From the NCBI RefSeq assembly GCF_018279165.1, contig NZ_CP047289.1:682001-746000 (forward strand): 64,000 nt of DNA. The letters are read 5' to 3'. Origin of the DNA: Falsirhodobacter algicola (GTDB lineage: Bacteria > Pseudomonadota > Alphaproteobacteria > Rhodobacterales > Rhodobacteraceae). The translations under genes were made by a program, and so were the position numbers. Positions 21,545-27,113 of the stretch are shown here, piece by piece (position 1 is the first letter of the stretch; each line of letters starts with the position of its first letter). The notes beneath the pieces are model-generated. The model had not been told where the DNA came from. It did not search any database and worked only from the letters and a program-made list of their open reading frames with translations.

Positions 21545-21946
21545 ATGTCCACGCTCTATTCCACGGAACTTCTGGCCCTCGCCTCCGATATCGGCCATGC
21601 GGGCCGCCTGCCCGCGCCCACCGGCAGCGCGACGCGCCGCTCCCCCACCTGCGGATCGACGGTGACGGTGGATGTGGTGACGGAGGGTGAAAGGCTCACC
21701 GCCTTTGCACAAGAGGTGCGGACCTGCCTTCTGGGTCAGGCGTCGGCCGCGCTGCTGGGTCGCTGCGTGTTCGATGCCGATCTGCCGCGCCTGCGCGCCG
21801 AGGTGGCGGCGATGCTGGCGGGCGGTCCGATCTGCGAGGCCTATGCCCCGCTGGCCCCGGCGGCGGAGCATCCGGCCCGCCATGCGGCCATCCTGCTGCC
21901 GATGGATGCCGCAATCGAAGCGATGGAAAAAAGCCGCCAACGCTGA
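21545..21946 (+). CDS. IscU/NifU-N-like Fe-S scaffold protein, degenerate ligand set
   Basis: A 133-aa protein of the NifU N-terminal/IscU fold. C36 (SPTCGSTV) and C61 (RTCLLGQAS) match the first two cluster cysteines of IscU, followed by the conserved helix after C61. The third IscU cysteine lies in an H-C-S motif near the C-terminus; here the aligned segment is ARHAAILLP with His113 but Ala at the Cys position. The Asp two residues after the first Cys is Ser. It may thus bind metal differently or serve as an accessory. Start ATG follows GGGAAGGG. Its 3' end overlaps the minus-strand terminator at 21926–21956. Confidence 0.75.
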   Translation: MSTLYSTELLALASDIGHAGRLPAPTGSATRRSPTCGSTVTVDVVTEGERLTAFAQEVRTCLLGQASAALLGRCVFDADLPRLRAEVAAMLAGGPICEAYAPLAPAAEHPARHAAILLPMDAAIEAMEKSRQR

Positions 21947-21956
21947 GGCTGGCGGC
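21926..21956 (-). terminator. Terminator of the SOS-controlled small membrane protein gene
   Basis: Read on the minus strand, GCCGCCA (21950–21956 side) pairs with TGGCGGC, followed by TTTTTT (21927–21932). It begins about 30 bp beyond the stop of the 38-aa ORF and overlaps the end of the convergent scaffold gene. It makes the small gene a self-contained unit. Confidence 0.8.
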
Positions 21957-21985
21957 AGTTGGCGCGTCAGGCAGGGCCGCGCAAC

Positions 21986-22102
21986 TCAGAAAGCGATATG
22001 AAGGCCTACGAAGAGGCCGGAGAACAGAACGACGACGCCCACGGCGTCCTCGATCAGCGTGGCACGGGAATGAGTCAGTACGGAACGGGCTTGATCCAGC
22101 AT
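21986..22102 (-). CDS. 38-aa single-span membrane protein under a LexA box (SidA-like design)
   Basis: Thirty-eight codons from ATG 22102 to TGA 21986, with a perfect AGGAGG 6 nt before the start. The N-terminal half (MLDQARSVLTHSRATLIED) is amphipathic and charged. The C-terminal half (AVGVVVLFSGLFVGLHIAF) is one transmembrane helix ending almost at the C-terminus. A LexA box of the alphaproteobacterial form GTTC-N7-GTTC lies 54 nt upstream (22157–22171), just past the recG stop, and a terminator follows. The design, a tiny SOS-regulated inner-membrane peptide, recalls the Caulobacter division inhibitor SidA. That functional link is inference; no sequence relationship is claimed. Confidence 0.75.
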   Translation of the reverse strand: MLDQARSVLTHSRATLIEDAVGVVVLFSGLFVGLHIAF

Positions 22103-22156
22103 AGGCAACCTCCTGTGTGTTGCCCGATTGTTCTCATACGTTCTGGAACAAGTAAA

Positions 22157-22171
22157 GAACTTATTAAGAAC
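22157..22171 (-). promoter_or_regulatory. LexA (SOS) box, GTTC-N7-GTTC
   Basis: The minus strand reads GTTC-TTAATAA-GTTC, an exact match to the LexA operator known from Rhodobacter, Caulobacter and rhizobia. It starts 3 bp beyond the recG stop and precedes the 38-aa gene. Nearer the gene the minus strand has GTTC-CA-GAAC (22140–22149) and a further GAAC (22130–22133). These could be additional contacts but do not have the canonical spacing. Confidence 0.75.
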
Positions 22172-22173
22172 AT

Positions 22174-26387
<4,214 letters not shown>

Positions 26388-26417: not shown

Positions 26418-27113
26418 CTAGGCCCCCATGGCAAGCGGCGCGGGATCGCGCAGCATGTAGCCGCGGCCCCAGACCGTCTCGATATGGTTGGCACCGCCGG
26501 TCGCCTCGGCCAGCTTCTTGCGCAGCTTGCAGATGAACACGTCGATGATCTTCAACTCCGGCTCATCCATGCCGCCATAGAGATGGTTGAGGAACATCTC
26601 CTTCGTCAGCGTCGTGCCCTTGCGCAGGCTGAGGAGTTCGAGGATCTGATATTCCTTGCCCGTCAGATGCACTTGACGGCCATGCACATCCACCGTCTTG
26701 GCATCGAGATTCACCACCACATCGCCGGTGCGGATCAACGACTGGGCGTGGCCCTTGGAGCGGCGGATGATGGCGTGGATGCGGGCCACCAACTCCTCGC
26801 GGTGGAAAGGTTTGGTCAGGTAATCGTCTGCGCCCGAACCGAAACCGCGCACCTTGCTTTCGGGATCATCCTCGCCCGACAGGATCAGGATCGGCGTGTT
26901 CACGCGGTTCATCCGCAACTGGCGCAACACGTCATGCCCGCTCATATCCGGCAGGTTCAGGTCGAGCAGGATAAGGTCGTATTCGTAGACTTTCGCCAGG
27001 TCGATTCCGTCTTCACCAAGATCGGTGCAGAACACGTTGAAATTCGCGCCCTTCAGCATCAACTCAATACTGCGCGACGTGATTGGATCGTCCTCGACCA
27101 GCAATATACGCAT
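26418..27113 (-). CDS. ctrA: Cell-cycle response regulator CtrA
   Basis: A 231-aa OmpR-family regulator: receiver domain (1–120) with acidic pocket ED8-D9, phospho-acceptor D51 ([13 protein letters not shown]) and K in [11 protein letters not shown] winged-helix DNA-binding domain (about 125–225) contains [14 protein letters not shown] and VWGRGYMLR. CtrA activates flagellar, GTA and cell-cycle genes; in Rhodobacterales it is usually non-essential and governs motility and gene transfer agents. Slightly shorter at the C-terminus than Caulobacter CtrA, lacking its long degradation tail. SciP, a CtrA-binding inhibitor, is encoded immediately upstream on the same strand. Confidence 0.95.

Follow-up and report, generated by a model that had tools for sequence, protein, structure and literature searches.

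The 38-codon open reading frame (ORF) that lies next to recG in Falsirhodobacter algicola looks like an undescribed core element of the DNA-damage response of the Rhodobacteraceae. As judged from the conservation of the sequence, the gene is very probably LexA-controlled and translated, and the explanation that accounts best for the data, to which we give roughly even chances, is that of a core Rhodobacteraceae SOS gene for a LexA-controlled membrane protein delaying division. The Rhodobacteraceae include abundant marine bacteria and model phototrophs, and no SOS division inhibitor was found described for them in the literature searched. No description of the small gene was found in the open-access literature searched, and it is likewise unnamed in the literature examined on the LexA regulon of the Alphaproteobacteria. 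Since the candidate gene is nearly universal, occurs in a single copy and has a defined promoter, damage-induced division arrest becomes directly testable in the family. All coordinates of the original prediction, those of the ORF, the ribosome site, the box and the terminator, were reproduced in the window, a 64,000-nt stretch of the F. algicola genome, and the earlier observation proves to be correct and understated.

Organization of the locus and its LexA-type promoter

The unit lies on the minus strand of the window, downstream of its conserved neighbour recG (22174-24279, minus strand, with Pfam RecG domains). The first LexA-type operator, GTTC-N7-GTTC (22157-22171), is located 3 nt past the recG stop and directly above the -35 hexamer, and is unchanged among relatives. 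A second GTTC-N7-GTTC (22146-22160) overlaps the first and has one half-site in common with it, and three GTTC half-sites are thereby arranged at 11-bp steps within 22146-22171. The likely -35 hexamer TTTACT (22151-22156) corresponds to TTTAC in most relatives and to TTGAC in diverged ones, and 17 nt separate it from GAACAA, which opens a GAAC-N7-CAAC element (22119-22133). This element is a near-match to the LexA operator, covers the likely -10/+1 region and is a putative further binding site; several diverged relatives have a perfect GAAC-N7-GAAC there. Next, a ribosome-binding site AGGAGG (22109-22114) precedes by 6 nt the ATG at 22102 of the ORF (21986-22102, MLDQARSVLTHSRATLIEDAVGVVVLFSGLFVGLHIAF), for which a short N-terminal helix and one membrane helix are predicted. 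Finally, a small hairpin with CCUGCCUG in its loop (21958-21985), an apparent remnant of a large 3′ RNA of the relatives, is followed by a Rho-independent terminator (21927-21956; hairpin part 21933-21956) with nine pairs, a 6-nt loop and TTTTTT, and congeners carry the same terminator hairpin. A convergent 133-aa ORF on the plus strand (21545-21946), which has no Pfam match, overlaps the terminator hairpin with its final bases.

The direct repeat GTTC-N7-GTTC is the LexA operator in Alphaproteobacteria (PMC3323433). The window genome encodes one full LexA, and N7 repeats precede lexA, recA, uvrA, uvrD and two imuA-like genes, where LexA and RecA were assigned by Pfam and the other SOS gene names by reading translations. 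The lexA promoter of this genome contains GAAC-N7-GAAC-N7-GAAC (L040:1455-1480), three GAAC half-sites at 11-bp steps that mirror the GTTC triple of the window, and the lexA and recA promoters of the Rhodobacteraceae have GAAC half-sites at or beside the -10 element. The small ORF has an N7 direct-repeat operator in its promoter in a genome where LexA is present, and the operator stays with the gene despite divergence of the promoter and relocation of the unit, as described below. The earlier assignment of the box as a LexA-type operator is upheld by the N7 sites at SOS genes and by the diverged loci. In the proposed mechanism, LexA bound to the tandem GTTC-N7-GTTC at -35, and probably also to GAAC-N7-(G/C)AAC at -10, would keep a short transcript off until DNA damage leads to RecA-stimulated LexA cleavage and release of the promoter; the transcript, with a leader of a few tens of nucleotides and a good ribosome site, would then yield a protein of 38-40 aa.

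Direct repeats one turn apart just above the -35 element are also typical of OmpR-type activators, and the gene of such a regulator is found nearby (26418-27113), so that the GTTC repeats might serve another regulator that uses 11-bp direct repeats, with no SOS control at all. We regard this as extremely unlikely, since diverged relatives may have the oppositely oriented GAAC-N7-GAAC at -10, as in the recA and lexA promoters of the family, which favours a repressor with the site of LexA. Acceptance of both orientations at both places would be unexpected for a regulator other than LexA. The presence of LexA and that of the box do not divide the genomes cleanly, as some genomes without a detected lexA still have the box, but these are mostly fragmented assemblies. 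A search for joint absence of lexA and the ORF gave no clear pattern either, most genomes without a detected lexA being fragmented and few candidates having been scored. As a separate observation, each of the two imuA-like genes in the window genome (G000 C1:873780 and C6:29267; loci L026 and L031) stands after a LexA-type box.

Conservation of the operator and the small ORF

In the window, 1.3 exact matches to GTTC-N7-GTTC are expected by chance, and the whole genome has 100, compared with 58 for the reversed control. The box by itself is weak, non-significant evidence, and the case for it rests on conservation. The 44-bp promoter pattern GTTCN7GTTCTTTACN18GAACAA is present in one copy per genome in 240 of 395 Rhodobacteraceae genomes, whereas the reversed pattern has no matches in the same set. 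A blind scan with this pattern covered one genome per species from 84,980 species, and among the 80 matches listed, 78 have recG directly upstream and a match to the ORF profile downstream, which at some of these loci is weak; their taxa are Rhodobacteraceae, or bins with a broad name only. Both recG and the ORF are missing at the remaining two of the listed matches, one from a Thermolongibacillus and one from an Acidimicrobiaceae bin, and no copy of the promoter was found in the viral contigs searched. The 240 conserved copies and the outcome of the blind scan rule out a chance box.

Among 39 loci selected by the ORF, the promoter positions AAGTTCTTTAC, TGAGAACAA and CAACA are near-invariant while the spacer is free. 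In the diverged loci, where the -35 element turns into TTGAC and the flanking sequence is altered, the N7-spaced half-sites are almost alone in persisting: 17 of 19 loci retain a perfect GTTC-N7-GTTC or GAAC-N7-GAAC, where shuffled sequence would lead one to expect 0.05. The spacing of the GTTC pairs in these loci is only 7 (17 cases) or 6 (three cases), and in some members the operator at -10 is the only perfect one.

The claim that the ORF forms an independent transcription unit with its own operator is borne out by loci in which recG lies at a distance. The gap between recG and the box is 545 nt in Frigidibacter, and the box and the ORF remain together, as they do in two genomes where both are found away from recG. 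Because the box and the ORF move jointly without recG, the operator is assigned to the ORF, and the Frigidibacter gap and the two relocated units rule out recG as its target. LexA control of recG itself has been predicted for some Alphaproteobacteria (PMC3323433), and the main text of a study of LexA in Dinoroseobacter does not mention recG (PMC6473078).

The ORF itself is more widespread than the exact promoter pattern. A single-sequence search of 61 genomes found it in 19, all of which have the same kind of box upstream and recG before it, and a profile seeded with these matches detected the ORF in 354 of the 395 Rhodobacteraceae genomes, almost every one from a separate genus. When 30 profile-negative genomes were re-examined, recG was found in 25, of which 17-19 have a diverged small membrane ORF downstream of it, adding at least 17 genomes to the 354. 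The original prediction had staked itself on conservation of the ORF or box in related genomes, and both are clearly conserved. The other five re-examined genomes (G020, G035, G125, G184 and G238) have no recG match and show weak Mfd-like matches or none. Outside the Rhodobacteraceae, approximately 380 genomes of the class contain no convincing member, with weak partial matches in three.

In 1240 of 1252 pairwise comparisons pN is below pS, and the differences at the first, second and third codon positions amount to 22172, 13669 and 29247, respectively, second positions varying least. Judged by these substitutions the ORF is under purifying selection, and the pattern rules out that it is not a gene. 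Asp19 and Gly22 do not vary across 56 sequences. An AlphaFold2 model consists of helices 2-11 and 13-37 with a mean pLDDT of 87, and together with hydropathy it indicates one membrane helix in a protein of 38-40 aa, which is a prediction and not a localisation. The helix would span the inner membrane, with the charged N-terminus probably inside. Purifying selection and the predicted helix agree with the earlier view of a real 38-aa single-helix membrane microprotein. Searches against Pfam, NCBIfam and PHROGs gave no match that is above the curated cut-off or common to many members, and there was no significant match in the PDB.

A conserved structured RNA downstream of the ORF

Across most of the family, the transcript of the small ORF would end in a structured 3′ RNA, which may act as a regulatory RNA. 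Among 135 loci, CTGCCTG is found downstream of the stop codon in 102 and CTGTCCC in 90, and the tail measures 100-235 nt and closes with a strong terminator in 113 (for example, L074:1705-1885 and L076:1702-1871). Most relatives have about three unpaired CUGCCUG/CCUGUCCC copies per tail; in predicted folds, 74% of the positions in these motifs are unpaired compared with 42% overall. A whole-family MAFFT/RNAalifold alignment recovered the terminator only, and the analysis therefore turned to an arm-swap test that needs no alignment and to alignments of subgroups. In the former, the stem arms of a locus paired better with each other than with arms from other loci, with z-scores of -15 for the closing stem, -8.8 for the first hairpin, -2.5 for the second hairpin and +0.8 for the control; the test leaves some relatedness effect, although control arms from the same genomes show none. 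One pair of the closing stem GCGnTCTx ... yAGAnnCGC is C-G in 13, G-C in 13 and U-A in 6 of the 32 loci scored, without a mismatch, and in a subgroup of ten members RNAalifold found the closing stem, the CCUGUCCC hairpin and the terminator. Rfam gave no match at the gathering score for the RNA of the tail or locus.

The conserved 3′ RNA, with its repeated unpaired C-rich motifs, may be a regulatory RNA, and the peptide may account for just one half of what the unit produces. The original prediction was right about the peptide part of the unit, but it had missed this RNA. In the genus of the window the tail is approximately 59-71 nt long, and in the window it comprises one hairpin and the terminator; the large 3′ RNA has been lost there and is hence not essential to the unit in this genus. 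A bifunctional LexA-controlled transcript of ~300 nt, encoding an inner-membrane checkpoint microprotein and carrying a new class of structured 3′ regulatory RNA with about three unpaired CUGCCUG/CCUGUCCC motifs, which is conserved across the Rhodobacteraceae and reduced to a remnant in the window genus, appears to us slightly less than evenly probable. Should the 3′ RNA prove functional, the transcript would rank as a dual-function RNA under SOS induction, and the window genus, which has kept the protein and lost most of the RNA, would separate the two functions naturally.

The structured 3′ part, its covarying stems and the near-invariant unpaired motifs might also mean that the unit works chiefly through its RNA, an SOS-induced regulatory RNA whose short ORF serves mainly for localisation or processing. 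The tail motif CUGCCUG/CCUGUCCC differs from the CcsR-type motif CUCCUCCC. Precedents exist in Rhodobacter, where ccaF1-CcsR (the CIN1 locus) and Pos19 of R. sphaeroides are stress-induced small-ORF transcripts with regulatory RNA (PMC10253847, PMC8625941, PMC5036791) and Pos19 is a coding sRNA that continues to regulate without translation (PMC5036791). The likeness to ccaF1-CcsR lies in a small ORF with RNAs in its 3′ UTR. In contrast to the LexA-type operator of the small ORF, these transcripts are RpoH- or RpoE-driven, and the ccaF1 product is a DUF1127 RNA-binding protein, whereas the small ORF has a predicted membrane helix and no Pfam match. A main role for the RNA is quite unlikely, as the window genus kept the ORF and promoter while losing nearly all of the 3′ RNA, and the ORF bears the marks of purifying selection. 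Identity with the R. sphaeroides 3′-UTR sRNA UdsC is also unlikely, its promoter being RpoHII-dependent and its mature RNA 67 nt long. In nine genomes CTGCCTGTCCC is not enriched, and the other CTGCCTGTCCC matches examined are single motifs in unrelated contexts, which argues against the 3′ RNA being one of several copies and against a common target upstream of one gene.

Candidate role in division arrest

The closest functional parallel is SidA of Caulobacter crescentus, a 29-aa LexA-controlled inner-membrane protein (PMC4211646, PMC12700426) that blocks division through FtsW and partners (PMC4211646). Shared features are a tiny protein, predicted here to be a very small single-span membrane protein, and an alphaproteobacterial host with the LexA site GTTC-N7-GTTC. 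In contrast, the FtsW target is established for SidA while a division target of the Rhodobacteraceae protein is inferred, the small-ORF family has no homologue found outside Rhodobacteraceae, and approximately 97% of Caulobacter SOS promoters have one LexA box whereas the small-ORF promoter has several half-sites. By analogy, the protein would most likely bind a late division protein (FtsW/FtsI/FtsN) in the membrane and delay septation until repair is finished, as SidA does in Caulobacter, and we regard such a division-brake role as about as likely as not. A search for SulA in 61 Rhodobacteraceae genomes found it in none, which leaves the place for an SOS division inhibitor vacant. YneA of Bacillus and SosA of Staphylococcus, both larger than the 38-40-aa protein, are similar in functional class. 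They are SOS-induced membrane division inhibitors (PMC13396833, PMC6851548), and YneA acts on FtsW (PMC13396833).

Small size, a single membrane helix in fewer than 40 aa and SOS control are also features of the TisB/DinQ kind of toxin, and DinQ is an SOS-regulated toxic peptide with a single membrane span (PMC3567139). The helix of such a toxin would depolarise or permeabilise the membrane and cause growth arrest or persistence. We consider this unlikely for the small ORF, as the distance from GAACAA to the ATG is 22-66 nt (median 34), too short for a long inhibitory leader, and no Rfam match reached the gathering score, whereas TisB and DinQ have long leaders and antisense RNAs. Pairing of the 3′ RNA with its own leader is likewise unsupported (z +1.7), and the gene shows wide one-locus conservation, single-copy beside recG across most of the family, unlike mobile toxin modules. 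The near-universal presence, the single copy beside recG and the short leader make a division checkpoint fit better than a toxin. An SOS-induced membrane protein that serves a different purpose, for instance in releasing gene transfer agents or in some other response of the envelope to damage, would accord with the link that exists in Rhodobacter capsulatus between LexA and these agents (Kuchinski 2016, as cited in PMC6473078), but is very unlikely, since the small ORF adjoins recG and not gene-transfer-agent genes. A variation in size is seen in Paracoccus aerius and P. saliphilus (L112 and L167), where the N-terminus is seemingly shortened; these forms of ~31 aa, near SidA in size, retain D-x-x-G, the membrane helix and the terminal LWLP.
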